From: Nitratireductor alexandrii
Lineage (GTDB): Bacteria; Pseudomonadota; Alphaproteobacteria; Rhizobiales; Rhizobiaceae
Reading direction: 5' to 3'
Assembly (NCBI RefSeq): GCF_004000215.1
Contig: NZ_RBVY01000005.1
Span: 62,001 to 126,000 of the forward strand
DNA: 64,000 nucleotides
A program made the position numbers and the translations under genes. Numbering within the stretch: position 1 is the first letter of the stretch; every line of letters begins with the position of its first letter. Below, piece by piece: positions 49,912 through 64,000 of this stretch. The notes under the pieces are model-generated. The model saw only the letters and a program-made list of their open reading frames with translations, was not told the DNA's origin and did no database searches.

Positions 49912-51117
49912 CTAGTTCAGCGTCTTCAGAAACGCCACCAGCGCCGCCTTGCCGCGCTCGGTCAGCCGCACCGGCCGCAGCTCGCTTGTGCCGGCCGGCG
50001 ATGTCGGCGCGTTCGCATAGTGCTCGACCACCGCCTCCAGTGTTGCGATCTGCCCGGCATGCATGTAGGGCGCGCGCAGCGCCACGCCCCGCAGCGACGG
50101 CGTCTTGAACGCCCGTTCCAGCTCGGGACCGTCGCGCAGCATGAAACGCAGCTCCGCACAGTCGCCTTCGGCTGCGTCGCTGAAATCGCCCTGGCAGTTG
50201 AACGGGTCGGCCAGAAGCCGCGCAATCGCACCCGCGCGCTCGCGGCCTGCCGGCGCCTGCGGATCGTCGGCAACGCCGGTATTGTGGAAATGGTCGTCGG
50301 TGAAGCGCGGTCCGTTGTGGCATTCCAGACAGTTGGCGCTGCCGACGAACAGTCGGAGCCCTTCCCGTTCGAGATCGCTGAAGGCGGCATCGCCTTCGGG
50401 CGGCTCGCCGCGCGCGAGCGCGGCCGCATAGCGGTCGAAGCGCGTCTTGACCGGCGGGATCGTGCGTTCGAAGGCCGCGATCGCCTTGCCGACATTGGCG
50501 AAAGCGCCGTTGACGGCCCGTCGCGCCGTCTCGTCCAGCCCGGCCCAGGCCGCCCGCTCTGCCGCGGTGCCGAACGGGCCGGCCGCGGCCGGCAGAACCG
50601 CAAGCGCCGGCAGCGGCCCGAACGCCGCCTCGTAGCCGGCGCGATGATGGCGCGCGACCAACCGGACGACGCCGGTGCGCGTCAGCCCGTGCTCGAGCGG
50701 GTTTTCCAGCGGCTCGAGCGCCTGGCTCCACAGCGAATCCTTGCGCCCGTCCCAGAAGAAGAACAGGTTCCACGCCAAGCCGGCGAGCGGCATGGTGCGG
50801 CGCGGGCCGGTGCCGAGCGCCTGGGCGCGCGGCAGGTCGTCCTGGAACTGACGCTGCGGATCGTGGCAGGTGGCGCAGGCGACGGCGCCGTTGGCGCTCA
50901 GCCGCGTGTCGAAAAACAGCGCCTCGCCGAGGGCGGCCGAGCCCGGATCGTCGGCCACCTTGTTGGAAACGGATGGCGGCACCGCGCCGAGGGCGGCCAG
51001 CGACAGCGAGGCGACGGCCTCGCGCTCGGCCAGGGTCAGCCCGCCCTCGCCGCAGCCGCCGAGCAGCACCGGCGCGGCGGCGACAAGGACGCGGGCAAGT
51101 GTGTTCAGGCTGACCAT
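49912..51117 (-). CDS. Cytochrome c peroxidase / MauG-family di-heme lipoprotein
   Basis: A 401-residue di-heme protein. The N-terminus is a lipoprotein signal with lipobox LLGGC (C22). Heme sites are CATCH at residues 81-85 and CLECH at 263-267. The stretch RRTMPLAGLAWNLFFFWDGRKDSL is typical of MauG/CcpA proteins, and MHAG near residue 355 supplies a likely distal methionine. It probably reduces peroxide or oxidises a protein partner in the periplasm. It follows the YtkA-like gene by ten bases. Confidence 0.92.
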   Translation of the reverse strand: MVSLNTLARVLVAAAPVLLGGCGEGGLTLAEREAVASLSLAALGAVPPSVSNKVADDPGSAALGEALFFDTRLSANGAVACATCHDPQRQFQDDLPRAQALGTGPRRTMPLAGLAWNLFFFWDGRKDSLWSQALEPLENPLEHGLTRTGVVRLVARHHRAGYEAAFGPLPALAVLPAAAGPFGTAAERAAWAGLDETARRAVNGAFANVGKAIAAFERTIPPVKTRFDRYAAALARGEPPEGDAAFSDLEREGLRLFVGSANCLECHNGPRFTDDHFHNTGVADDPQAPAGRERAGAIARLLADPFNCQGDFSDAAEGDCAELRFMLRDGPELERAFKTPSLRGVALRAPYMHAGQIATLEAVVEHYANAPTSPAGTSELRPVRLTERGKAALVAFLKTLN

Positions 51118-51717: not shown

Positions 51718-52647
51718 ATGCGGGCAGGACATATCGCGGCGGTTGGGGAATGCATGCTGGAACTCGCCGGCGCCGAGGACGGATTGTGGCGCATGGGCCA
51801 TGCCGGCGACACGTTCAACACGCTGTGGGCGCTCCGCGCGCTGACCGACACCGCGCAGGCATGTGACTACGTGTCGGCCTTCGGCGACGATCCGTTCTCG
51901 GCCGCCCAGATCGCCTTCATGCGCGAAAACGGCATCGGCGTCGCCGCGAGCCCGAAAATCGCCGGTGCCCGCCCCGGCCTTTACGCCATCACGCTCGATG
52001 GCGCGGAACGTTCCTTTACCTACTGGCGCTCCGACGCCGCCGCCCGCCGGCTCGCGGACGACGCAGGCCCGTTGACGAAAAGCCTTCAAAACCGGATGCT
52101 TATCTATTTTTCCGGAATCACTTTGGCAATTCTCGAGGCGCCCGCCCGCCGGCGACTGTTCGACGCGCTCGCCACAGCGCGCGCCGCCGGCGCGACGGTT
52201 GCCTTCGATCCCAATTACCGGCCGCGCCTGTGGCCGTCGGCCGCCGCCGCCAAGGCCGCGATCGGCGAGGCGCTGGCGCTCACCGACATCGCCCTGCCGA
52301 CCTTTCCCGACGAAAACGCGCTGTTCGCCGACCCAAAGCCGCAGGCGACCGCCGACCGGCTGGCCAAGGCCGGCATCGCCGAGATCGTCGTCAAGGACGG
52401 CGCCGATCCCGCGCTGGTTGTCTGCAATGGCCGCGCCGAACCGATTGCCGCCGTCGCGGTGGAAAACCCGGTCGACACCACCGGCGCCGGCGATTCCTTC
52501 AATGGCGGCTATCTGGCCGCGCGGCTTTCCGGCCATCCGCCGCACGCGGCGGCGCGGCGCGCCCACCAGGTCGCGGCGGCCGTGGTCCAGGTGCGCGGCG
52601 CGCTGGCGCCGTTTTCGATCCTGCGGGCGGCGTTCGAGCCTATCTGA
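51718..52647 (+). CDS. kdgK: 2-keto-3-deoxygluconate kinase
   Basis: A 309-residue PfkB-family kinase that phosphorylates KDG at C6 for aldolase cleavage. It matches KdgK throughout: AVGECMLELAG, YWRSDAAARRLA, YFSGITLAILE, VAFDPNYRPRLW and the catalytic-base region DTTGAGDSFNGGY. GGAGAAAG precedes the ATG. The 3' end overlaps galM by eight bases in a convergent arrangement. Because C6 carries a sulfonate in the sulfosugar analogue, this enzyme would not fit a sulfo-Entner-Doudoroff route; it more likely serves ordinary sugar acids. Confidence 0.94.
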   Translation: MRAGHIAAVGECMLELAGAEDGLWRMGHAGDTFNTLWALRALTDTAQACDYVSAFGDDPFSAAQIAFMRENGIGVAASPKIAGARPGLYAITLDGAERSFTYWRSDAAARRLADDAGPLTKSLQNRMLIYFSGITLAILEAPARRRLFDALATARAAGATVAFDPNYRPRLWPSAAAAKAAIGEALALTDIALPTFPDENALFADPKPQATADRLAKAGIAEIVVKDGADPALVVCNGRAEPIAAVAVENPVDTTGAGDSFNGGYLAARLSGHPPHAAARRAHQVAAAVVQVRGALAPFSILRAAFEPI

Positions 52648-53656
52648 AACGGTATTCCGTCACCTGGCGGTAGCGGTCGCCGGGCCACAGCACGGCCTGC
52701 GGAAAATAGGGCCGGTTCGGCGAGTCCGGCCAGACCTGCGGTTCGAGGCAGAAACCGGCATGCGCACGGTAGCGGCGCCCGCCGAGCCCTGCGGCCTGCG
52801 GCGCGAGCTTGTGGCCGGCGTAAAACTGGATGCCGGGCTCGGTGGTCCACACCTCCATCTCCACGCCCGAATGCGCGCTCTGCACCCAGGCCGCCTGGCG
52901 CAGGGGTCCGCGCGCGGCCGCCAGGCAGAAATTGTGGTCGTAGGCGAGTTGAGCGTTGTGTTCGTCGGCATGGCGGATCGGCCGCGGCAGCAAAAAGTCG
53001 AACGCCGTGCCTTCCACCGGCGCCACCACCCCGGTCGGGATCATCTCCGCGTCGACCGGCAGATAGGCCGAGGCCGCGATCATCGCCCGATGATCCAGAA
53101 TATCGCCGCTGCCGCCATCGTCGAGGTTGAAATAGGAGTGATGGGCGAGATTGCACAGCGTCGGCGCGTCGGCGGTCGCGCTCAGTTCCACCGACAGCGT
53201 GCCTGGAAGCTTCAGCCGGTAGGTGCACGACAATTCGAGGTCGCCCGGAAACCCCATCGTGCCGTCGGTGTCCTTGAGCGACAGCGCGACGAAATCCGCG
53301 CCGTGGGCGGCGAGTTGCCAGACCCGCTTGCCGATCCCCGCCGACCCGCCGTGCAGCGTGTGCTTGCCCAGAAAATTGCGGTCGGTCTCGAAGCGCTGGC
53401 CTTCGATGGTGAAATGTCCGTCGCGGATGCGGTTGGCGTAGCGTCCGGCGATCGCGCCGAAATAGGGCGAGTGCGCCGGATAATCGGCAAAATTTTCGAA
53501 GCCCAGCACCAGCGGCGCGTCATGGCCCGACAAACGCAGATCCTGGACGACGGCGCCCCATGTCAGGATGTTGGCCCGCAGGCCGCCGCCGGAAATGGCG
53601 AGACGGTGCACCGCCTCGCCCGCCTCGGTCGTGCCGAACATTTCCGGGCCTGCCAT
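52640..53656 (-). CDS. galM: Aldose 1-epimerase (mutarotase)
   Basis: A 338-residue galactose-mutarotase-type enzyme interconverting sugar anomers. The catalytic histidine is in LAHHSYFNLDD and the glutamate in TTEPGIQFYAG; GRYANRIRDGHF and LHGG are conserved. It lies 66 bases downstream of the GabD-family gene and is probably the last gene of that transcript. In sulfoquinovose clusters an enzyme of this family acts as the sugar's mutarotase, which is one reading of its position here. Confidence 0.92.
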   Translation of the reverse strand: MAGPEMFGTTEAGEAVHRLAISGGGLRANILTWGAVVQDLRLSGHDAPLVLGFENFADYPAHSPYFGAIAGRYANRIRDGHFTIEGQRFETDRNFLGKHTLHGGSAGIGKRVWQLAAHGADFVALSLKDTDGTMGFPGDLELSCTYRLKLPGTLSVELSATADAPTLCNLAHHSYFNLDDGGSGDILDHRAMIAASAYLPVDAEMIPTGVVAPVEGTAFDFLLPRPIRHADEHNAQLAYDHNFCLAAARGPLRQAAWVQSAHSGVEMEVWTTEPGIQFYAGHKLAPQAAGLGGRRYRAHAGFCLEPQVWPDSPNRPYFPQAVLWPGDRYRQVTEYRFR

Positions 53657-53722
53657 GTCCAGCTCCGTCGATGGCCGTCTTCGGTGGATCGCCGGCCCCG
53701 CGGGGCCGGCGGCTGCGTAGCA

Positions 53723-55180
53723 TCAAAGGCCGAGGCCGCCGATGCAGACATATTTGGTGTCGAGATAGTCATCGATGCCCTGATGGCCGCCCTCGCGCCC
53801 GAGGCCGGACTCCTTCACCCCGCCGAACGGCACCTCGACCGTGGTGATCAGGCCCTCATTGACGCCGACCATGCCGTATTTCAGCGCCTCGGTGACCCGG
53901 AAGGCGCGGCCGAGATCGCCGGAATAGAAATAGCAGGCCAGGCCGAATTCGGTGTCGTTGGCCATGGCGACCGCCTCGTCCTCGGTCTCGAAGCGAAACA
54001 CCGGCGCGACCGGACCGAAAATCTCCTCCTTCATCACCCGCATGGCCGCGGTGGCGCCGGAGATCACCGTCGGCTCGAAGAACGAGCCGCCGAGATCGTG
54101 GCGCTTGCCGCCGGTGACGACCGTGCCGCCCTTCGCGGTCGCGTCAGCGATCAGCTCCTCGACCTTCTCGACCGCCTTCACGTCGATCAGCGGTCCCTGC
54201 TGGGTACCGTCGTCGAGCCCGGCGCCGACCTTCAGCTTCTGCGAGGCGGCGGCGAGCTTTTCGACGAAGGCATCATAGACGCCGGCCTGGACGAAAAACC
54301 GGTTGGTGCACACGCAGGTCTGGCCGGAATTGCGGTATTTGGCCACCATCGCGCCTTCGACGGCGCGGTCGATATCGGCATCGTCGAAAACCAGGAACGG
54401 CGCGTTGCCGCCGAGTTCCATCGACACCTTCTTCACCGTCGAGGCCGATTTCTCGATCAGCATCTTGCCGATCTCGGTCGAGCCGGTGAAGGTGATCTTG
54501 CGCACCAGCGGATTGGAGCACAATTCGTCGCCGATCTCGCTCGCCGAACCGGTGACGATGTTGACGACTCCCTTCGGGAACCCCGCCTCCTCGCACAGCG
54601 CGCCCCAGGCAAGTCCCGAATAGGGCGTCTGCGAGGCAGGCTTGACCACCGCCGTGCAGCCGGCGGCAAGCGCCGGGCCGATCTTGCGGGCCAGCATCGA
54701 GGAGGGAAAATTCCACGGCGTGATCGCCGCGACCACCCCGACCGGCTCCTTGGTGACCAGCAGACGACGGTCCGCCCACGGGCTCGGCACCACGTCGCCA
54801 TAGGTGCGCCGCCCCTCCTCCGCGAACCACAGAATATAGGCGGCCGAGATCGCCACCTCGCCCTTGGCCTCGGCAAGCGACTTGCCCTGCTCCATCGTCA
54901 GGAGCTCGGCCAGAGCATCCTGGTTTTCCAGGATGAGGTCGTGCAGCCGGCGCAGCAATTTGGACCGTTCGTTGGCCGAGGTCTTCTTCCACGGCTGGAA
55001 GGCCTTTTCGGCCGCCTCGATGGCGCGCCGGGTTTCGGCCGTGCCCGATTTCGGCACCGTGCCGATCGTCAGCCCGTTGGCCGGGTTGGTCACGTCCAGC
55101 GTCGCGCCCGAATCGGCCTGAACCCACTCGCCATCGATCAGGTTGGCCTGACGCATGTAGTGGCTGGTCTTCTGCAACAT
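53723..55180 (-). CDS. NAD(P)-dependent aldehyde dehydrogenase (GabD / sulfolactaldehyde dehydrogenase family)
   Basis: A 485-residue aldehyde dehydrogenase that matches succinate-semialdehyde dehydrogenase closely (MRQANLIDGEWVQADSGATL, PWNFPSSMLARKIGPALAAG). The glutamate is in MELGGNAPF and the cysteine in GQTCVCTNR. GGAGG precedes the start. Lying 19 bases after comC, it may oxidise sulfolactaldehyde to sulfolactate, as GabD-like enzymes do in the sulfo-Entner-Doudoroff pathway. Ordinary succinate-semialdehyde oxidation cannot be excluded from sequence. Confidence 0.93.
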   Translation of the reverse strand: MLQKTSHYMRQANLIDGEWVQADSGATLDVTNPANGLTIGTVPKSGTAETRRAIEAAEKAFQPWKKTSANERSKLLRRLHDLILENQDALAELLTMEQGKSLAEAKGEVAISAAYILWFAEEGRRTYGDVVPSPWADRRLLVTKEPVGVVAAITPWNFPSSMLARKIGPALAAGCTAVVKPASQTPYSGLAWGALCEEAGFPKGVVNIVTGSASEIGDELCSNPLVRKITFTGSTEIGKMLIEKSASTVKKVSMELGGNAPFLVFDDADIDRAVEGAMVAKYRNSGQTCVCTNRFFVQAGVYDAFVEKLAAASQKLKVGAGLDDGTQQGPLIDVKAVEKVEELIADATAKGGTVVTGGKRHDLGGSFFEPTVISGATAAMRVMKEEIFGPVAPVFRFETEDEAVAMANDTEFGLACYFYSGDLGRAFRVTEALKYGMVGVNEGLITTVEVPFGGVKESGLGREGGHQGIDDYLDTKYVCIGGLGL

Positions 55181-55199
55181 AAATCGCCTCCGTGCCGCG

Positions 55200-56207
55200 C
55201 TACCTGGCGGCAATGGTTTCAATATCCTGAATAAGCGCCGAATCGAGCGGAATGCCGTCGCGCCGCAAACGGTGTCGGATTTCGTGCCGTCTTTGCCCCG
55301 GCACTCTCGCTCCATCCGTTTCGCCGACAATTTGCGACATTTCGGCAAAGCGGGCAACCGCGTCGACGGTACCGAGGGCTGCTGGATCAATCGCAATCAG
55401 AAGCTGGCCGGTCCCGGGCGGGGCGCCTTCGGCATCGAAGAACGAGGTTTGCTCGTAGGCGAAATTGGCGCCGGTCAGCCCCGCCGCCAGCAGCTCGACC
55501 ATCAAAGCCAGCGCGGTGCCCTTGGCATCGCCGAGCGGCACCATCGTGCCGGCAAGCGCGGCCTCGGCGTCGGTGGTCGGGTTGCCGGCGCTGTCGAGCG
55601 CCCAGCCCTCGGCAATCGGCTCGCCCTTCTGCCGGGCGGCCATGATCTTGCCGCGGGCGACCTTGGACAGCGACACGTCGACCACCACCGGCGCGCCGCC
55701 CTCCACCGGACAGGCAAAGGCGATCGGATCGGTGCCGTAGAGCGCGCGCCGTCCGCCCCAGGGCGCCATCGCCGCCGGCGCGTTGGCAAAAAACAGCGCC
55801 ACCAACCCCCGTTCGGCCAACGCCTCCACCGTCAGTCCGGCCACCCCGGCATGGTGCGAGCGCTTTACGCCGGCAAGTGCCACCCCCTGGGCCGGCGCGA
55901 TCTCGGCGAGCCGGCCGACGGCGAGTTCGAGCGCGGGATAGGCAAAGCCGTGCGCGGCGTCGATCTGGACGGCGCCCGGCCGTGTCAGGGTCGCAGTCGC
56001 GGCGGCGAAGCCGTCGACCTTGCCGGCCCGCGCCTGGGCGGCATAGGCCGGCACCCGGCGCAAGCCATGACCGCCCTGCCCGGCCAGTTCGGCGCCGACC
56101 AGGGCGCGCGCCACCGCCTCGGCATTATTGGCCGCCGTGCGCGAGGCCGTCAGCGCCGCCACGCACAGGCGATGCGCGTCCTCGGCCGACAAAAGACGTT
56201 CGCTCAT
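55200..56207 (-). CDS. comC: (R)-sulfolactate dehydrogenase-like protein (malate/L-lactate dehydrogenase family)
   Basis: A 335-residue NAD(P)-dependent dehydrogenase of the Ldh/malate-ureidoglycolate family: GHGLRRVPAYAAQARAG, VKRSHHAGVAGLTVEALAERG with the catalytic histidine, YGTDPIAFACP. In sulfolactate degraders the ComC member reduces sulfopyruvate to (R)-sulfolactate. The assignment rests mainly on its coupling to slcC (TGATG junction at 56205-56209) and the suyAB genes upstream. Other hydroxyacid substrates are possible on sequence alone. Confidence 0.82.
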   Translation of the reverse strand: MSERLLSAEDAHRLCVAALTASRTAANNAEAVARALVGAELAGQGGHGLRRVPAYAAQARAGKVDGFAAATATLTRPGAVQIDAAHGFAYPALELAVGRLAEIAPAQGVALAGVKRSHHAGVAGLTVEALAERGLVALFFANAPAAMAPWGGRRALYGTDPIAFACPVEGGAPVVVDVSLSKVARGKIMAARQKGEPIAEGWALDSAGNPTTDAEAALAGTMVPLGDAKGTALALMVELLAAGLTGANFAYEQTSFFDAEGAPPGTGQLLIAIDPAALGTVDAVARFAEMSQIVGETDGARVPGQRRHEIRHRLRRDGIPLDSALIQDIETIAAR

Positions 56208-57136
56208 CACCGTGCCCCCAAATGCGCCAGCACCGCGTCGGCGATCACCGCCGAGACGCGGCCGTTCGATTCCACCGTCACCCCGGCAAGGTGCGGCGTC
56301 AGGATCAGATTGGGCAGGTCGACGAATTTCCTTCCGGCTTCCGCCGTCAGCGGCTCGGCCTCGAACACGTCGAGCGCGGCCCCGCCGATCCTCCCCGCAC
56401 GCAAGGCGGCGGCAAGGGCGTCTTCGTCGACGACCCCGCCGCGCGCGGCATTGACGAGGATCGCATCGCGCTTCATGCGCGCGAGCTCGGCCGCGCCGAT
56501 CATATGCCGGGTCGCCGCCGTCAACGGTACGTGCAGACTGACGACATCGGCCGCCGCGAGCAGCGCGTCGAGCGCCATCGGCCGCGTCGTTTCCCAAGCC
56601 GGATCGGCCGCGTCGAGCAGCGGGTCGTGCGCGGCAACGGCCATCCCGAGCGCGCGCGCCCGGGCGGCGACCTCGCGCGCGATCGCGCCGTAGCCGATCA
56701 GGCCGATCGTCCTGCCCGACAATTCGCGTCCGATCAGCGTCTGGCGCGGCCAGGCGCCGGCGGCCACTGCGCCGGTTGCCGCATAGGCGCCGCGCAACAG
56801 CGCCATCGCCGTGGTGATCACATATTCGGCCACCGACAGATCGTTGGCGCCGGTCGCCGGAACCACGGCGATAGCGCGCGCCTCGCAGGCGGCCAGGTCG
56901 ATATTGTCGAGGCCGACGCCGAGCCTGCCGACCATCTCCAGACGCGCCGCCGCCGCCAGCAGCGCGCCGCGCACCTGGGTGCGGTTGCGCACCACGAGCA
57001 CCCGCGCTTCGGCAAGGGCGGCGGCCAGGGCGTCGGGCCGGTCGACGAGCGAGGCATCGTAGAGCGTGTCGTGGCGCTGACCCAGGCGCTCGACGGCGGT
57101 CTCGTCCATGAATTCGGCGATCACGATTTCAGGCAT
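56207..57136 (-). CDS. slcC: (S)-sulfolactate dehydrogenase
   Basis: A 309-residue SerA-family D-2-hydroxyacid dehydrogenase. The N-terminus MPEIVIAEFMDETAVERL and the block GRLGVGLDNIDL ... VVPATGANDLSVAEYVI resemble SlcC as I remember it from Chromohalobacter. The catalytic residues are complete: arginine in NAARGGVVDE, glutamate in DVFEAEPL, histidine in LTPHLAGV. SlcC oxidises (S)-sulfolactate to sulfopyruvate. ATG 57136 is preferred over a TTG two codons earlier. Two repeated boxes lie 131-170 bases upstream. Confidence 0.85.
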   Translation of the reverse strand: MPEIVIAEFMDETAVERLGQRHDTLYDASLVDRPDALAAALAEARVLVVRNRTQVRGALLAAAARLEMVGRLGVGLDNIDLAACEARAIAVVPATGANDLSVAEYVITTAMALLRGAYAATGAVAAGAWPRQTLIGRELSGRTIGLIGYGAIAREVAARARALGMAVAAHDPLLDAADPAWETTRPMALDALLAAADVVSLHVPLTAATRHMIGAAELARMKRDAILVNAARGGVVDEDALAAALRAGRIGGAALDVFEAEPLTAEAGRKFVDLPNLILTPHLAGVTVESNGRVSAVIADAVLAHLGAR

Positions 57137-57266
57137 GGGCAATGCGGCTTCCCGTTTGAACGCCGCCCGGCATCACGCGGGCGGCCGATAATATCAAGTC
57201 GCCGCCGCCGGCCCATAATCGGCACGAGCGGCGGCGAAAGCATGACCCGCGACGGGATCGTCGCGA

Positions 57267-57306
57267 CATTGCGGACAATCGAGCCCGATCCGCATTGCAG
57301 ACAATG
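57267..57306. promoter_or_regulatory. Tandem CATTGC(G/A)GACAAT boxes upstream of slcC
   Basis: Two 13-base near-identical copies at 57267-57279 and 57293-57305, 26 bases apart start to start. The second is inside a palindrome CATTG-N4-CAATG. They lie in a 257-base gap between suyB and slcC that has no convincing gene. They look like binding sites for a dimeric regulator that gives slcC-comC-gabD-galM its own promoter. Confidence 0.5.
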
Positions 57307-57393
57307 GGGCCCGGTCTGCGCGCGCGCTCGAAACGACAATGCGCCGCCAAAGCCGGCGAGTGGATCGCAGACCCGATCTCGCCACTCGAGCGC

Positions 57394-58575
57394 TCAGGCG
57401 CTCCTGTAGAGCTTGGTCATGACGAATTCGCGATGGCCGAGCGCCTCGGCGGCGGTGCTGCGCCCGCTGGCGGTACGCATGATCATGTCGATCAGCGCGT
57501 CGCCCGCATCGTCGATCGTCATTTCCCGGCGCAAGATGCCGGAAACGTCGAGGTCGACATGCTCGCCCATGGTGCGCACGGTGCGCGGATTGGCGGTGAT
57601 CTTGATCACCGGCACGATCGGATTGCCGATCACATTGCCCTGGCCGGTGGGAAAGGTATGCACCACGTAGCCGCCGGCCGCCATCAGCGTCACGCATTCG
57701 GCCGCCGCCGACGAACTGTCCATGAAATAGAGCCCCTTGCCGACGTTGGGCGCTTCGGCCGGCTCCAGGATGTCGATGAATTTCGACGTGCGGCCGATCT
57801 TTTCCAGATTGCCGAGCGCCTTTTCCTCGATCGTCGTCAGCCCGCCCTCAATATTGCCCTTCGTCGGCTGGCTCTCCGACAGATCGTCGGTCTGGTGGGC
57901 GAAGATAACGTCGTCCTGATAGGCCTTCCACATCGCGTACCAGCGTTCGCCGACCTCGGGGCTGACGGCGCGCTGCTTGCAGATATGCTCGGCGCCGGTG
58001 ATCTCGGAGGTCTCGCCGAAACAGCCGTAAATGCCCTCCGGCAGCAGCTTGTCGTACATGTTGCCGACCGTCGGGCACGAGCCGAGCCCGGTGGTGGTGT
58101 CGCTCTCGCCGCATTTGGTGGACACCCAAAGCTCGCCAACCGCGCAGTCCTCGCGCTGCAGCTCGGTGGCGTAGTGGACGAATTCCTTCGCCTTGCGCGA
58201 GGCGTCCATGATCGTCCTCAAATCGCCGTTCTGCTCGATCGAGAACCCGGCCACCGGCTTGCCGGTTTCCGCGATTCCGTCGACGATCTTCTGTGTCCAG
58301 CCCGGCTCGATGCCGATCACGATGCAGGCCGCCACGTTGGGATTGGCGCCGGTGCCGATCATGGTGCGGAAATGCAGGTCCAGGTCGGCGCCGAACTGCA
58401 GCCTGCCATAGGCGTGCGGCAGCGCCAGCGTACCCTTGATGTTGTTGGCCACCGCCTCGCAGGCGGCGTTGGAAATATCGTCCACCGGCAGGATAACGAC
58501 ATGGTTCCTGACTCCGACGCGGCCATTGTCGCGCCGGTAGCCCTTGAAGGTCAGGTTGGAGTATTTCGAGGCCAT
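57394..58575 (-). CDS. suyB: (2R)-sulfolactate sulfo-lyase, beta subunit
   Basis: A 393-residue protein of the UxaA / altronate dehydratase-like family. Its sequence ([78 protein letters not shown]) agrees with my recollection of SuyB. The cysteines of KCGESD and SCPTVG are likely ligands for the iron needed in this family. With SuyA it splits (R)-sulfolactate to pyruvate and sulfite. Split altronate dehydratase is the alternative, but slcC and comC next door favour sulfolactate. Confidence 0.85.
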
Positions 58576-58632
58576 CTTCGCTTTTCCCGTGCCATTTCGT
58601 GCGATGCGGAAAACCCGTTCCCGCGTCGGCGC

Positions 58633-58920
58633 CTACCAGCGCTTGGTCTTCAGATTGTGGACGTGCACATGTCCGCCGCGCGCCACGTCGGCGACGAAGC
58701 GTCCGATATCCTCGCCATATTTGATCGCGGTATCGCCGTCGGCGATGTCGCGAAGCGCCACCTTGTGGCCGATCGGAACGTCGTTTCTGGCCTCGATCTC
58801 GAAGCTGGAATCGTCCTCGGTGACGACGGCCAGCATGCGGGTGCCCGCCGTCAGCCCCTCGACCACGACGACGCCGACATTGTCCTTCCGGTCATGCACG
58901 AGCAGGTGTGGAATGGTCAT
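58633..58920 (-). CDS. suyA: (2R)-sulfolactate sulfo-lyase, alpha subunit
   Basis: A 95-residue SAF-domain protein matching the N-terminal part of UxaA-type dehydratases: VPIGHKVALRDIADGDTAIK, then YGEDIGRFVADVARGGHVHV and a C-terminal HNLKTKRW. It is the small subunit of SuyAB, encoded 57 bases upstream of suyB. It is the first gene of the minus-strand unit, starting 34 bases from a perfect palindrome. Confidence 0.85.
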   Translation of the reverse strand: MTIPHLLVHDRKDNVGVVVVEGLTAGTRMLAVVTEDDSSFEIEARNDVPIGHKVALRDIADGDTAIKYGEDIGRFVADVARGGHVHVHNLKTKRW

Positions 58921-58953: not shown

Positions 58954-58967
58954 GTCTTATATAAGAC
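58954..58967. promoter_or_regulatory. Palindrome GTCTTATATAAGAC between suyA and gntR
   Basis: A perfect 14-base palindrome in the 119-base gap between two divergent starts, with a further AAGATAT half-site-like sequence nearby. It fits an operator of HutC-type GntR regulators, one of which is encoded by the divergent gene. Confidence 0.65.
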
Positions 58968-59039: not shown

Positions 59040-59774
59040 ATGAACGAGAACGCGCCAGCCACGACATTCGCCTACAAGCCGCTCTATATGCAGGTGAAGG
59101 ATCAACTCGTCCGGCGCCTGATCGACGGCGAGTGGCAGCCGGGTCAATTGATCCCTTCCGAGATGGAACTGGCGCGCCAGGTCGGCGTCAGCCAGGGCAC
59201 GATCCGCAAGGCGCTCGACGCGATGACGGCCGAGAACCTGCTGATCCGGCGCCAGGGTCGCGGCACCTTCGTCGCCAGCCCGGAGGAAAGCCGCATCCTG
59301 TTCCAGTTCTTCCGGCTGGTGCCGGACGACGGCGAGACCTCGTTTCCGCAATCGCGCATTCTCAGGCGCGACCGGGCCCGCGCCAGCCGGCAAGACGCCC
59401 AGGCGCTCGGCCTGCAGGCCGGCGAAACCGTGTGGCTGATCGAGCGGCTGCGTTCGATCCGCGACAGACCGCTTTTGGTGGAAACGATCCGCCTGCCCGC
59501 CGCCCGGTTTGCCGGTTTCGACGAGATCGCCGGACTGCCCAACAATGTTTACGGGCTCTATTCGCAGCGCTGGGGCGTCACGATCGCCCATGCCAGCGAG
59601 AGACTGAAAGCGGTCGCGGCGCGCGAGCCCGATGCCGGCCGGCTCGGCTGCCTGGCCGGCACACCGCTGCTTGAGATCACGCGAATAGCCTTCGACCTGG
59701 AAAACAAGCCGGTCGAGCTGCGGGTCTCGCGCTGCCTGACCGAAACGGCCCATTACGCCGCCGAACTGCGCTGA
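59040..59774 (+). CDS. GntR-family regulator, HutC subfamily (UTRA domain)
   Basis: A 244-residue regulator. Winged helix: residues about 14-80 (MQVKDQLVRRLIDGEWQPGQ ... IPSEMELARQVGVSQGTIRKALDAMTAENLLIRRQGRGTFV). The UTRA ligand domain follows (PLLVETIRLPAARFAGFDEI, GTPLLEITRIAFDLENKPVE). It is divergent from suyA and is its likely repressor, with sulfolactate or a related acid as the probable ligand (inferred). Confidence 0.92.
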   Translation: MNENAPATTFAYKPLYMQVKDQLVRRLIDGEWQPGQLIPSEMELARQVGVSQGTIRKALDAMTAENLLIRRQGRGTFVASPEESRILFQFFRLVPDDGETSFPQSRILRRDRARASRQDAQALGLQAGETVWLIERLRSIRDRPLLVETIRLPAARFAGFDEIAGLPNNVYGLYSQRWGVTIAHASERLKAVAAREPDAGRLGCLAGTPLLEITRIAFDLENKPVELRVSRCLTETAHYAAELR

Positions 59775-59787
59775 GCCTCGGCCCGCC

Positions 59788-60738
59788 TCAACCGAACACG
59801 GCTTGCAGCACCAGCAGCCACAGCGAGGTCGTGACCGCCGCGCAGCTCGTGGCGATCATCATCGCATTCGTCGAGATCGCCTGGCCGGTGCCGAACTGGA
59901 CGGCGATCAGATAGGCGTTGACGCCGGTCGGCAGCGACGCGGTGATGACGGCGACCTGGGCGGCCAGCGGCGGCAGGCCGAGCGCCAGCGCCAAGGCCAG
60001 GGTCGCCGCCGGCATCACGATGAGCTTGAGCCCGGCAAGGGCGACGCCGGCGCGCAGATTGCCGGCAATGCCGTAGCGGCGCAGGCCGAGGCCGATCGAA
60101 AACAGCGCCAGCGGCCCGGCAATGCCGGCCAGCGCGTCCACGAAGCGCAGGCCGAGGCCGGGCAGTTGCAGGCCAGTGAAGCGGAAGGCGAGCCCGGCCA
60201 GAATGCCGATGATCAGCGGATTGCGCAAAAGCTTGCCGAAAAAATCCGAGACCAGCGCCACCGGGCGCGGCGCGCCGTCGCGGCTGCCGTCGAGAATCGC
60301 GAAGACGACGATCGAGGCCGCCATCATCACCACCAGATGCACCGACACGATCAGCGCCAGGATCTCGAAACCGGCCTGGCCGAACACGCCGAGCACCAGC
60401 GGGATGCCGAGCAGAACTGTGTTGGAGAATGAGGCCGACACGCCGCCGACCACGCCGGCGCGCGCGTCGCGCCCGAACACGCGCGTGGTGACGAACTGGC
60501 CGAGCGCCCAGGCGATCGCCACCGAGGTGAAATAGGTGATCCACAAGGACCAGGACGCCGCGCCGTGAAAATCGGCGCTTTGCATGGTCTTGAACAACAA
60601 AAGCGGCACCGCGACCGAGACTGCGAATTCGGCCAGCGCGTCGCCGGCCTCCGCCTTCAGATAGCCGCTCACGCCGGCGAGATAGCCGAGCGCGATCAGA
60701 CCGAAAATGAACAACACGGCTTCGACTTCGGCAGACAT
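59788..60738 (-). CDS. AEC-family transporter (auxin efflux carrier-like)
   Basis: A 316-residue membrane protein with about ten helices, of the AEC family: GLIALGYLAGVSGYL at the start, SFSNTVLLGIPLVLGVFG, a central polar loop, and NAYLIAVQFGTGQAISTNAMMIA near the end. Bacterial AEC proteins move malonate, malate or similar anions. AGGCGGGG precedes ATG 60738. It converges with the GntR gene. A role in moving sulfolactate, sulfite or another anion of this cluster is possible but unproven. Confidence 0.88.
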   Translation of the reverse strand: MSAEVEAVLFIFGLIALGYLAGVSGYLKAEAGDALAEFAVSVAVPLLLFKTMQSADFHGAASWSLWITYFTSVAIAWALGQFVTTRVFGRDARAGVVGGVSASFSNTVLLGIPLVLGVFGQAGFEILALIVSVHLVVMMAASIVVFAILDGSRDGAPRPVALVSDFFGKLLRNPLIIGILAGLAFRFTGLQLPGLGLRFVDALAGIAGPLALFSIGLGLRRYGIAGNLRAGVALAGLKLIVMPAATLALALALGLPPLAAQVAVITASLPTGVNAYLIAVQFGTGQAISTNAMMIATSCAAVTTSLWLLVLQAVFG

Positions 60739-60798
60739 GCCCCGCCTGATAGGCAAGTCGGCGGCCGCCGGCAAGGCAGGTCGCCCGCCGACCCGGCC

Positions 60799-61890
60799 TC
60801 AAAGCGCGATCGCCGAGCCCGTCCTGGCGCTTTCCTCCGCCGCCTGGCCGATCATCACCGCGCGCATGCCGTCGTCGAGCGTCACCTCGGGCGTTCCGCC
60901 GTGGCGCACCATGTCGAGAAATTTGCGGTGCTGGAAGAAGGTCGAGCCGTGATGGTCGCCCGCCGCCAGGATGGCGGGATCGACATGGATTTCCTCGCGC
61001 ACGGGCTGTTTGGTGGCGCGCGGCGAAACGACCAGTTCCGACAGCCGCTCGCGCCCGTCCGGCGAAAACCGGGCCGGCCCGGGCACGAACGCCTCGATCG
61101 AGGCCAGGTCCCCGGTCGCGGCGATCTGCTCTTGCCAATAGGCACCCTCTGCGAACATGCACAGATCGAGCATGGCGCGCACGCCGTTGTCGAAATCGAC
61201 GACGACGAAGGCGTTGTCGAGAATATCGGCCGGCCGGCCGCCATAGGTTTCTCCGACAAAATTGACGTCCATGGCGCCCGAGGCGTAGACGCGCCTGGCC
61301 TCCGCACCCGCCATAAACCGCATAAGATCGAAGAAATGACAGCATTTTTCGACCAAAGTGCCGCCGGTACGCACGGAAAACCGGTTCCAATCGTCGATTT
61401 TCTGCAGAAACGGAAAGCGATGCTCGCGAATCGCGATCATTTTGAGCCGCCCCGCCTCGCCGGCCCGCACCTTGTCGATCAGCCGCTCGACCGGCGGCAT
61501 GTAGCGATATTCCATCGCCACCCAGGCCGGCGCGGCCGCCTTTTCGGCAAGCCGCAATATCGCCCGGCAATCGTCGAGCGTGGCGCAAAGCGGCTTTTCC
61601 ACCAGCACCGGCTTGCCCGCCGCCAGCACGTCGGCGAGCACCGCGGCATGGGTGTCGTTGGGGCTGGCGATCACCACGCAGTCGAAGCCGCCGGCCGACA
61701 GCAGGTCGCGATGATCCCGGTACTGCGCCAGCCCGGCGCGGCCGCCCGCCGCCGCTTGGGCCAGGCTGTCGACATTCGGATCGGCGAGCGCGGCGATCTC
61801 CGCGCCCTCGAGCAAAGCGATGTTGCGCATATGCTCGCGGCCCATCATGCCCGTGCCGATGACGGCGTAGCGCAGTGTGCCGGCGCGCAT
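60799..61890 (-). CDS. Gfo/Idh/MocA-family oxidoreductase
   Basis: A 363-residue NAD(P)-dependent sugar dehydrogenase-like protein: Rossmann AVIGTGMMGREHMRNIALL, lysine in VLVEKPLCAT, and GGTLVEKCCHFFDLMRFMAG on the substrate side. The start at 61890 (MRAGTLRY) lies one base after the isomerase-like gene's stop, so the two are coupled. It differs from the other Gfo/Idh/MocA gene (18168-19340) in its active-site block. Confidence 0.9.
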   Translation of the reverse strand: MRAGTLRYAVIGTGMMGREHMRNIALLEGAEIAALADPNVDSLAQAAAGGRAGLAQYRDHRDLLSAGGFDCVVIASPNDTHAAVLADVLAAGKPVLVEKPLCATLDDCRAILRLAEKAAAPAWVAMEYRYMPPVERLIDKVRAGEAGRLKMIAIREHRFPFLQKIDDWNRFSVRTGGTLVEKCCHFFDLMRFMAGAEARRVYASGAMDVNFVGETYGGRPADILDNAFVVVDFDNGVRAMLDLCMFAEGAYWQEQIAATGDLASIEAFVPGPARFSPDGRERLSELVVSPRATKQPVREEIHVDPAILAAGDHHGSTFFQHRKFLDMVRHGGTPEVTLDDGMRAVMIGQAAEESARTGSAIAL

Positions 61891-61891
61891 G

Positions 61892-63307
61892 TCAGAGGTC
61901 GAGGACGGGGATGCCGAGGGTTTCGGCGGCGGCTCCAAGAGCATCGCGATGGTCTCCATAGGCGAGCGCGAGGTGATGCTCGAGCGCCGCGCCCATGACG
62001 CGATCGAGCAGTTCTGCCGCCGGCGTGTCGAAGCGCACCACGCCCGACGTGCCGGTAAACGCCATCGGCCGCTTGAGCATCTCGCCGCCGCCGATCACCG
62101 CCACCGTTCGCCCCCGCGCCTGGCTGATTCGCAAAAAGGTGATCCGGCCCGGCTTGAGCGGAAACTGGTAGAGAAGCGGCATCCTGCGGTTGGTGTGGAT
62201 GGTCGCCTGCGGCACGAAGTCCGGATCGGCCATCGACAGCGGCGCCTGGCCGCAATGCCACACAACGCCGCTATTGTCGGCGGCGTCGAGATCGACCAAA
62301 TCGGTCAAGAAGGCAGGCGCGCCGGCGACCCGTTGCAAGAGCAGGCTCGACAAAGCGCCATAGACGTCGGCCTCGCAGGCGCACGGAACGCGCGCCTCGC
62401 CCAGCATCGCCACCGGCCCGCACACCGCCCCGCCATACTCGGTGAAGGTTTCCGGCCAGCAGCGGATCGCAAACGCGTCATAGCCGTTTTCGGCGCGCAA
62501 CCCGTCGAGCGCGACCTTGAGCCGATAGGAGCGGTCGAGCTGGTCCTGATCGACCGCCTCCAGCCCCTCAAGCACCGTTTCGGCCTGGGCCGCGACGCTC
62601 TCGACGGCATTCCTGTCGGCCGCCACGGCACCGGCAAAAAGCCGCTCAAGCTCCAGCGCCTCGACATGCACGCCCGCCAGGGCGGCGATCTTCGCCTCGT
62701 CATAGGCGCAGGTATCGAACCCGTCGGGATGCTTGCCGATCCGGCCGATGCGCGTCCCGCGCAGGCTGAGGGCGGCCTGCCGCCCGCGCGGATCGCCGCC
62801 TGTCGCCGGCCGCACCGGCACCGGCCGCGCGATGCGCTCGCCCGCAAGCAGCGCGACCAGATCGCGGTCGATCTCTGTCGCCTGCGGATCGGCATAGAGA
62901 TAACCGAAGGGACGCTGCGCCAGGCCGAGCGCGTGGGCGGCCAGGTTGAGCCCGCAAAACGCGTTCAGCCTCAGCCGTCCGCCGAGACGCGGCTCCGGCA
63001 CCGCCCAGATCGAAAACGGGCCGGAAAAAGCTTGCGCCGCCTCCGCCACCATGCCGGCATCGGTGAAGGTGACCTGCAGCACGAGCACCTGGTCGGGCTT
63101 GCTCGTCCGCAGTTCCGCGATCGCGGCGCGCGCCGCACCGGCGTCGAGCAGCAGCGACCGGGGGCCCGTCAGCTCGGCGCCGGTGCGCTCGAGCGCGGCC
63201 AGCATCGCCGCCAGTCTTTCTTCGGCGAACGGCACGTCGAAGGTCGGCCGCGCGAAGGGCAGGATCGCGATCTTGCCTTTGCCGGGCGCTTTGGCTTTGC
63301 TTCCCAT
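61892..63307 (-). CDS. L-fucose/L-arabinose isomerase-like protein
   Basis: A 471-residue protein with the two-part look of fucose/arabinose isomerase-like proteins: an N-terminal ILPFARPTFDVPFAEERLAA domain and a C-terminal barrel with FAIRCWPETFTEYGGAVCGP and CACEADVYGALSSLLLQ. The acidic residue of EADVYG is a candidate metal ligand, as in FucI-like enzymes. It is paired with the Gfo/Idh/MocA gene that follows; the sugar is unknown. Confidence 0.82.
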   Translation of the reverse strand: MGSKAKAPGKGKIAILPFARPTFDVPFAEERLAAMLAALERTGAELTGPRSLLLDAGAARAAIAELRTSKPDQVLVLQVTFTDAGMVAEAAQAFSGPFSIWAVPEPRLGGRLRLNAFCGLNLAAHALGLAQRPFGYLYADPQATEIDRDLVALLAGERIARPVPVRPATGGDPRGRQAALSLRGTRIGRIGKHPDGFDTCAYDEAKIAALAGVHVEALELERLFAGAVAADRNAVESVAAQAETVLEGLEAVDQDQLDRSYRLKVALDGLRAENGYDAFAIRCWPETFTEYGGAVCGPVAMLGEARVPCACEADVYGALSSLLLQRVAGAPAFLTDLVDLDAADNSGVVWHCGQAPLSMADPDFVPQATIHTNRRMPLLYQFPLKPGRITFLRISQARGRTVAVIGGGEMLKRPMAFTGTSGVVRFDTPAAELLDRVMGAALEHHLALAYGDHRDALGAAAETLGIPVLDL

Positions 63308-63352: not shown

Positions 63353-63907
63353 ATGATCCGGATACTCATCACCCTCGCACTGATTTCCCTCACCTTGCCG
63401 GCCCAGGCGACGGAAGCCGGCTGGGCGCTGCTGCGCGGCGGCGGCCATGTCGTGCTGATGCGCCATGCCTATGCGCTGGGCACGGTCGAGCCGCCCAATT
63501 TCGACATCGAGAAATGCGGCACCCAGCGCAACCTGTCCGAACGCGGCCGCCACCAGGCCCGGCGCATCGGTTCGCTGATCGCCGCGCGCGGCGCGCCAGT
63601 GGAGCGCGTCCTGTCGAGCCGGCTTTGCCGCGCCCTGGAAACGGCGCGCCTCGCCTTCGGCGCCGGCGCGGTGGAAGCCTTCGCCCCGCTCGACCCGCCC
63701 GGCGAGGACGAGACCGCCAACGCCGAAGCCCTGGCCGCGACGATCGAGGCGGTGCATGGATATTCCGGTTCCGGCAACATGGTCATGGTCGCCGACCTTC
63801 CCGCCATCAAGGCGCTGACCGGGCGCAAGACGCGCGAGGGCGAGGCGCTGATCGTCGCGCCCGCCGAGAACGGCCTGGTGGTGCTCGGCCGCATCGTCTT
63901 CAACTGA
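63353..63907 (+). CDS. Histidine phosphatase family protein (exported)
   Basis: A 184-residue phosphoglycerate-mutase-fold phosphatase. It has a signal peptide (MIRILITLALISLTLPAQA) and the catalytic LMRHAYALG near residue 40. The second-shell arginine is in LSSRLCRALETA; GNMVMVADLPAIKALTG replaces the usual GHxxN block, so the second catalytic histidine of the classical motif is not obvious. ACAGGAAGG precedes ATG 63353. Probably periplasmic and unrelated to the neighbouring sugar genes. Confidence 0.85.
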   Translation: MIRILITLALISLTLPAQATEAGWALLRGGGHVVLMRHAYALGTVEPPNFDIEKCGTQRNLSERGRHQARRIGSLIAARGAPVERVLSSRLCRALETARLAFGAGAVEAFAPLDPPGEDETANAEALAATIEAVHGYSGSGNMVMVADLPAIKALTGRKTREGEALIVAPAENGLVVLGRIVFN

Positions 63908-64000
63908 CGGAAACCGGATCGTCACACCATCTCTCCGTAACCGTTCCGGAAACTGGAATCGGCGGGGCAGAACCGCGCCCCGGCCGCGCCATAGGCCGGA
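63908..64000. other. Right window edge
   Basis: Ninety-three bases after the phosphatase stop. No gene, repeat or regulatory site could be recognised. Confidence 0.5.

Follow-up and report, generated by a model that had tools for sequence, protein, structure and literature searches.

We analysed a stretch of 64,000 nucleotides from Nitratireductor alexandrii (hereafter the window; positions 62001-126000 of contig NZ_RBVY01000005.1, our C36, in a genome, G000, of 4.87 Mb) that carries a cluster of genes for sulfonate metabolism. A sequence-only reading had placed six genes, suyA, suyB, slcC, comC, a gabD-like gene and a galM-like gene, at 52640-58920, and the open reading frames (ORFs) and family matches confirm all six, on the minus strand; the 19 bases it had counted between comC and gabD are likewise borne out by the coordinates (comC, stop codon included, reaches 55200, and gabD has its ATG at 55180). 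Divergent from suyA is a gene for a GntR/UTRA regulator (59040-59774, plus strand; PF00392, PF07702), and between the two lies an operator-like palindrome, TCTTATATAAGA (58955-58966, strand not applicable). Further along, the minus strand carries sqgA (60799-61890), an isomerase gene (61892-63307) and the 3' end of an aldolase gene (63922-64000), with a kinase gene just beyond the window (C36:126965-127861). We consider it likely that these genes form an extended, hybrid sulfoglycolytic Embden-Meyerhof-Parnas (sulfo-EMP) cluster that would take sulfoquinovosides to sulfite within one cell.

In the desulfonation module, suyA (58633-58920) and suyB (57394-58575) would encode the small (95 aa) and large (393 aa) subunits of (R)-sulfolactate sulfo-lyase. 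The suyA product gave a single NCBIfam match, to galactarate dehydratase in its N-terminal part (38.5 bits), and no Pfam match at E 0.001; its orthologues stand beside suyB in relatives. The suyB product matches PF20629 (271 bits) and PF04295 (115 bits). SuyAB are two separate subunits of the UxaA/GarD family and group with SuyB of sulfonate pathways: SuyB is 67% identical to the copy adjoining hpsN and hpsO (so annotated) in Cupriavidus pinatubonensis HN-2, and in a tree of 21 proteins it falls within a 14-row clade (support 100/100) that includes this copy and three hps-linked copies. Outside the clade, among rows for which the tree carried a long-branch warning, are one protein annotated as GarD, another annotated as UxaA and this genome's three further members of the family. 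Among the 24 best plasmid rows, identity to SuyB drops from 60.0% straight to 38.4%. In another strain of the species, C. pinatubonensis JMP134, SuyAB desulfonates after HpsO, HpsP and HpsN (PMC9594981).

slcC (56207-57136; D-2-hydroxyacid dehydrogenase family, PF02826/PF00389) and comC (55200-56207; Ldh_2 family, PF02615 at 309 bits) adjoin suyAB. Against the NCBIfam L-sulfolactate dehydrogenase model NF040650 the comC product scores 184 bits versus a cut-off of 500. We compared 80 suyB loci, the best 80 of at least 540 confirmed relatives; since the flank searched was at most 10 kb, all linkage counts are lower bounds. Near suyB, slcC homologues occur in 38 and comC homologues in 60 of these loci. 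From family and conserved neighbourhood we infer that SlcC and ComC are a pair of sulfolactate dehydrogenases, acting on the (S)- and (R)-forms, respectively. The approximately 257 bases between suyB and slcC (57137-57393) hold no evident gene, and a short stretch there seems to repeat.

The sequence-only reading had also held that the first steps of a sulfosugar pathway were missing from the window, which is wrong: they adjoin the cluster. The Gfo/Idh/MocA-type product of sqgA scores 373-380 bits against chains 8zn9, 8qc2 and 8qc3 and 82 bits against the next chain, and is predicted to be a GH188 NAD+-dependent sulfoquinovosidase (the start codon is our choice; the ORF extends to 61959). 8QC2 is named as GH188 in PMC11465081. 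We infer that 8qc3 is ArSqgA because a single offset brings the eight residues cited in PMC10755693 (K107, Y136, R166, L170, K172, E189, H193 and H321) into line with it. The window SqgA and eight relatives retain all eight of these catalytic and sulfonate-binding residues. For one more position of that paper, Glu163, the chain has V, with E following at 164; this E is retained as well.

The isomerase had one NCBIfam match, to the sulfoquinovose isomerase SftI (NF048012, 266 bits), and two relatives gave the same single match; we place it in the SftI/SqvD family. SqvD is assigned to the arabinose/fucose isomerase family (PMC9594981). A PDB sequence search with the isomerase gave no match at E 0.1. 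An AlphaFold model built on nine sequences (pLDDT 83, pTM 0.86) has the PF02952-type arabinose/fucose isomerase fold, with Foldseek matches to arabinose isomerases (E 1.8e-20) and the fucose isomerase 1fui (5.6e-16); the TM-scores are around 0.5, with large root-mean-square deviations, so the kinship is distant. A PF07221 (YihS-family) gene on contig C1 was considered as an alternative isomerase and rejected: its matched stretch, the part compared, resembled mannose isomerase weakly. The kinase is of the PfkB family, and its best solved match, at 209 bits (next 162), is 'sulfofructose kinase' 7ag6, which we take to be YihV. The aldolase gene extends out of the window (approximately G000:C36:125922-126932, or longer); it is of LacD/DeoC type and its homologue in Aliihoeflea (L028) matches PF01791. 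From its position, it is a probable sulfofructose-1-phosphate aldolase.

Downstream of comC, the galM-like gene (52640-53656) scores 249 bits against the PRK11055 subfamily (cut-off 240) and 273 of 398 bits against TIGR02636, and would encode an aldose 1-epimerase that is probably a sulfoquinovose mutarotase. The gabD-like gene (53723-55180) has a product that reaches 700 bits against the succinic semialdehyde dehydrogenase (SSADH) subfamily TIGR01780, above the 646-bit cut-off. Ten GabD copies linked to suy or to sulfofucose (sfc) genes form a clade of their own, apart from 3jz4, 4v6h, 3ek1 and 8c54; of its support values, 93/97, the bootstrap is below the tool's double threshold. We take 3jz4 to be Escherichia coli GabD, and the organisms of the other GabD chains are presumed in the same way. 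At the mouth of the pocket, seven of the ten clade members read NEGLITT[VP]E, against NTGIISNEV for GabD of E. coli and NTGMIANEM for the Rhizobium leguminosarum enzyme (RlGabD). We take 8c54 to be the assayed RlGabD; the residue numbers of PMC10599462 fit it without offset. The window GabD keeps Arg171/Arg289, Cys295/Cys297, Glu261 and the Trp-Asn-Phe residues cited for sulfolactaldehyde dehydrogenase. Its separate clade and altered loop argue that it is probably a sulfolactaldehyde dehydrogenase, as the sequence-only reading had supposed.

Ten of the 11 genomes searched hold GabD of this type at 65% identity or more, including Aliihoeflea (82%, unlinked to suyB) and Maritalea (65%, 1 kb after sqgA), and four of the 11 carry extra, more distant copies (55-60%) besides the clade-type copy. 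RlGabD does not group with the window GabD; it pairs with a Pseudohoeflea copy adjoining comC (L043:13195-14733, minus strand) that is 71% identical to it, and so a relative of the assayed sulfolactaldehyde dehydrogenase occupies the comC neighbourhood there. MR_MLE-family and gluconolactonase-family genes lie nearby in that locus, which may have a different front end joined to this back end. In Sinorhizobium mexicanum, a window-type GabD (82%; L007:364-1830) lies about 13 kb from suyA, beyond SfcF-, SfcE- and SfcD-family genes and ATP-binding cassette (ABC) transporters (L007:5667-13796). Paracoccus wurundjeri is reported to have no GabD/SlaB homologue, and a candidate enzyme to be inactive; S. 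mexicanum is listed among the relatives with the same tandem pathway (PMC12421959). The S. mexicanum GabD is a candidate for the sulfolactaldehyde dehydrogenase step reported missing from the sulfofucose pathway.

The two halves of the cluster share a palindrome. TCTTATATAAGA did not occur in 100 shuffles of the window, and the identical 12-mer lies 52 bases 5' of the kinase ATG (L005:17914). Allowing up to two mismatches, the 15-mer form is found at four places in the whole genome and the reversed control at none. The third site, GTCTTGTATAAGAC, precedes a molybdopterin oxidoreductase gene by 20 bases, and genes for a 4Fe-4S protein and a DmsC/NrfD-type anchor follow that gene. This SoeABC-like operon (L133:3162-7730, on G000:C36) is 34 kb beyond the kinase, and soeABC in Ruegeria pomeroyi likewise runs molybdopterin subunit, 4Fe-4S subunit, anchor (PMC4334477). 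A similar palindrome precedes the orthologous soeA-like gene in N. arenosus and in two Aquibium genomes.

The sites recur beyond this genome. Twelve related genomes hold 19 sites compared with two for the control; of the 17 sites that were placed, 10 are before suyA, three before the kinase gene, three before the soeA-like gene and one just past galM. Across the 80 suyB loci (1.51 Mb), with up to one mismatch, there are 57 sites versus one for the reversed pattern, and a site precedes suyA in 9/9 isomerase-linked, 2/2 sfcF-linked, 30/38 other and 2/31 hpsN-linked loci. S. mexicanum has a second, identical palindrome at L007:12008, between a divergent transporter operon and aldolase-lactonase genes. 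The GntR/UTRA protein probably binds these sites. Separately, in Methylobacterium radiotolerans suyA is separated from a TauE/SafE sulfite exporter gene by a region with two copies (L008:14128 and 14518), which suggests that in this species the exporter is part of the regulon.

Among the matches listed, the named organism with the nearest SuyB is Nitratireductor arenosus (98%), which has an identical gene order. Over the 80 loci, suyB is linked to the isomerase in nine, sqgA in eight, the aldolase in eight and the kinase in 12, and to gabD (at least 65%) in eight, galM in 12, kdgK in six, hpsN in 31 and sfcF in two. The isomerase-linked loci all carry the kinase, slcC, comC and gntR, and eight of the nine carry the aldolase and sqgA. 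A GH188 protein at 54% or more is present in 10 of 13 genomes searched, including each of the six that carry gabD-galM-kdgK. The best GH188 matches from N. soli, Sinorhizobium sp. 6-70 and Hoeflea marina are weak and partial (E 2e-18 to 3e-21 and 3e-17), such as general Gfo/Idh/MocA proteins give.

In the route that we propose, SqgA would release sulfoquinovose from sulfoquinovosides, GalM would speed the exchange of its anomers, the SftI/SqvD-type isomerase would convert it to sulfofructose and the YihV-type kinase would phosphorylate this to sulfofructose-1-phosphate. The LacD-type aldolase would then yield dihydroxyacetone phosphate and (S)-sulfolactaldehyde, which the GabD-like enzyme would oxidise to (S)-sulfolactate. 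SlcC and ComC would turn this into (R)-sulfolactate via sulfopyruvate, and SuyAB would split it to pyruvate and sulfite; the SoeABC-like operon may oxidise the sulfite to sulfate. The GntR/UTRA regulator would act at the palindromes before the suy operon, the kinase-aldolase-isomerase-sqgA genes and the SoeABC-like operon. The genes, their order and family placement, the SqgA active-site residues, the linkage and the shared palindrome are observed directly; the substrates, the pairing of regulator with operator and the sulfite oxidation are predicted from sequence. Of the sequence-only reading, the desulfonation module, the probable role of GabD, the passage of a sulfosugar to sulfite in a single organism and the exclusion of kdgK are supported, and the absence of the first steps is not, given sqgA, the isomerase, the aldolase and the kinase beside the cluster in a sulfo-EMP-like arrangement.

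Several observations weigh against this route, beginning with the front-end enzymes. The isomerase, at 266 bits, is far from the 700-bit NCBIfam cut-off and is not a member of that equivalog, although it may work like SftI all the same. The top NCBIfam match of the kinase is to ribokinase (147 of 300 bits, below the cut-off). Within PF01791 the aldolase is not closest to YihT (63 bits): LacD matches it at 137 bits and 8tnf, whose function is not stated, at 295. It scores 320 bits against the NCBIfam tagatose-1,6-diphosphate aldolase subfamily PRK12858 (cut-off 184). Genes for sulfoquinovose uptake were not identified, and a PDB search with an ABC binding protein returned weak, general sugar-binding matches only. 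At the far end, the top NCBIfam match of the SoeA-like protein is to the thiosulfate reductase PhsA (178 of 694 bits). The fourth palindrome site, TATCTTATATAAGAT, precedes an operon of ABC transporter and GH31 genes (L134:4818-15372, G000:C37) with no clear sulfonate link, adjoining GntR/FCD, fructuronate-reductase-like and mannonate dehydratase (hexuronate) genes; this site may be unrelated to sulfonates. Because of the mannonate dehydratase and GntR/FCD genes beside it, we kept the GH31 operon out of the pathway despite its palindrome. Its GH31 gene was also rejected as an alternative sulfoquinovosidase: it matches MalA (282 bits) and alpha-xylosidase (226) above PRK10426 (146; presumably YihQ), all below cut-off.

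The remaining points on this side concern GabD and GalM. E. coli GabD shares the residues cited for sulfolactaldehyde dehydrogenase, so these do not discriminate, and the window GabD is 61% identical to E. coli GabD versus 57% to the assayed R. leguminosarum enzyme. This genome has no further GabD above 47%, and six of the 11 related genomes likewise have one close copy only, so that a housekeeping role would also suit the protein. Hoeflea alexandrii holds the front end with no GabD above 59%. In the isomerase-linked loci, gabD is present in only 3/9 and galM in 6/9; for gabD, this linkage and its presence at 65% or more in 10/11 genomes pull in opposite directions. Hoeflea marina has suyAB, gabD (71%) and galM without GH188, which disfavours a strict link of gabD and galM to GH188.

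Some of this evidence could instead point to another sulfohexose. Were it sulfofucose, for example, an isomerase of the fucose type would give sulfotagatose, and the kinase and LacD-type aldolase would lead to the same sulfolactaldehyde. The aldolase score above the tagatose-1,6-diphosphate subfamily cut-off, the isomerase fold and the S. mexicanum GabD orthologue in a region of SfcF, SfcE and SfcD family genes all suit this explanation. We nevertheless think it improbable, given that SqgA keeps the whole sulfonate site and E189, the residue that reportedly binds sulfoquinovose at its C4 hydroxyl, and that the best solved match of the kinase is a sulfofructose kinase. A sulfofucose dehydratase SfcF was also sought in this genome and rejected; the search with the SfcF-type protein from S. 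mexicanum reached at best 42%, across residues 16-312 of the 388 in the query.

A second explanation, slightly less probable again, is that the suy operon alone handles sulfonates, in the form of imported sulfolactate, with the upstream operon, GabD and GalM doing unrelated sugar work and GabD serving as a housekeeping SSADH. The isomerase is unlinked in 71 of the 80 suyB loci within their flanks of at most 10 kb, gabD is linked in a third of the isomerase loci, and GabD lies above the SSADH subfamily cut-off and is the sole close copy in the genome. On the other hand, both operons carry the same palindrome, their linkage is repeated across several genera, the GH188 active site is kept, the GabD clade and loop are distinct, and the additional distant GabD copies in four of the 11 genomes speak against a housekeeping role for the clade-type copy. 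The cluster could also be read as a sugar-acid pathway in which SuyAB, as an altronate- or galactarate-type dehydratase, feeds kdgK (51718-52647, plus strand), which adjoins the cluster; galactarate dehydratase is indeed the only NCBIfam name that SuyB receives. This we regard as very improbable indeed. The grouping of SuyB with altronate or galactarate dehydratases had been set beforehand as the refuting test, and SuyB instead stands apart from GarD and UxaA with full support, with the sharp drop in identity described above, so that SuyAB as a sugar-acid dehydratase was rejected. kdgK was rejected as a pathway gene in turn. It is nearest to 2-keto-3-deoxygluconate kinases and is convergent, overlapping the end of galM by 8 bases. 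Of the six loci with kdgK at 60% or more, five continue into the same MauG-like di-haem peroxidase gene (in the window at 49912-51117, minus strand) and the sixth ends there. For these reasons kdgK looks like chromosomal background.

Two further genes lie among those described. An AEC-family membrane transporter (59788-60774, minus strand; PF03547) is encoded between gntR and sqgA and is linked, at 55% or more, in 5/80 loci. Between the isomerase and aldolase genes is an ORF on the plus strand (63353-63907), read from its translation. It is presumably histidine-phosphatase-like and probably outside the pathway. The translation has a signal-peptide-like start, and in Aliihoeflea (L028) the isomerase and aldolase genes touch.

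The arrangement is not the first of its kind, because a GH188-Y160 cluster with nearly the same gene set was published in 2024, from bioinformatics only, for Actinobacteria bacterium IMCC26103 (PMC11465081). That cluster is actinobacterial, has Tyr at the Leu170 position and carries ABC transporters, whereas the window SqgA has Leu; the available text describes for it no ComC, mutarotase, shared operator or sulfite oxidase link. The sulfofucolytic-SuyAB tandem of P. wurundjeri (PMC12421959, 2025) has the same SlcC, ComC and SuyAB back end, with complete degradation to sulfite in one cell, but an Entner-Doudoroff (ED)-type front end acting on sulfofucose, and a sulfolactaldehyde dehydrogenase that is not known, where a GabD-like gene follows comC here. 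Extended sulfo-transaldolase clusters of Thermotogae and Chloroflexi (PMC9594981) also join sulfoglycolysis to SuyAB, with an SqvD-type isomerase, but use a transaldolase in place of kinase and aldolase. The Arthrobacter sulfo-EMP pathway with SlaB and SqgA (PMC10755693; PMC12890257) shares GH188, the YihV-type kinase and the oxidation of sulfolactaldehyde to sulfolactate; it differs in excreting sulfolactate and in its YihS-type isomerase and YihT-type aldolase. The hpsNOP-suyAB pathway for 2,3-dihydroxypropane-1-sulfonate (DHPS), in C. pinatubonensis and alphaproteobacterial loci, shares the SuyAB back end behind a DHPS front end, and the operator precedes suyA in only the two of 31 such loci noted above. 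An Ensifer strain with both sulfo-ED and DHPS clusters has been remarked on (PMC10599462). A literature search by title and start of abstract, with subscription papers mostly outside it, found no paper on sulfoquinovose and Nitratireductor, nor any study of the present arrangement in Alphaproteobacteria.

The turnover of sulfoquinovose is generally presented as cross-feeding, in which one bacterium excretes a C3-sulfonate and another desulfonates it; sulfolactate is treated mainly as a product for other bacteria (PMC12890257; PMC13372026), although certain degraders are noted to carry genes for the subsequent steps as well (PMC12890257). A single-cell route in the named strains of Nitratireductor, Aquibium, Aliihoeflea and Hoeflea would be testable in pure culture. 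We hold in even balance a broader proposal, in which one GntR-type operator would run the whole sulfoquinovoside-to-sulfate programme in Hyphomicrobiales, the operator and SuyAB back end would take exchangeable front ends (sulfoquinovose or sulfofucose), and the suy-linked GabD clade would be a new group of sulfolactaldehyde dehydrogenases, providing the step reported missing from the sulfofucose pathway. For the enzyme of that step this clade offers a concrete candidate, and the operator sequence could be used to locate more sulfonate genes.

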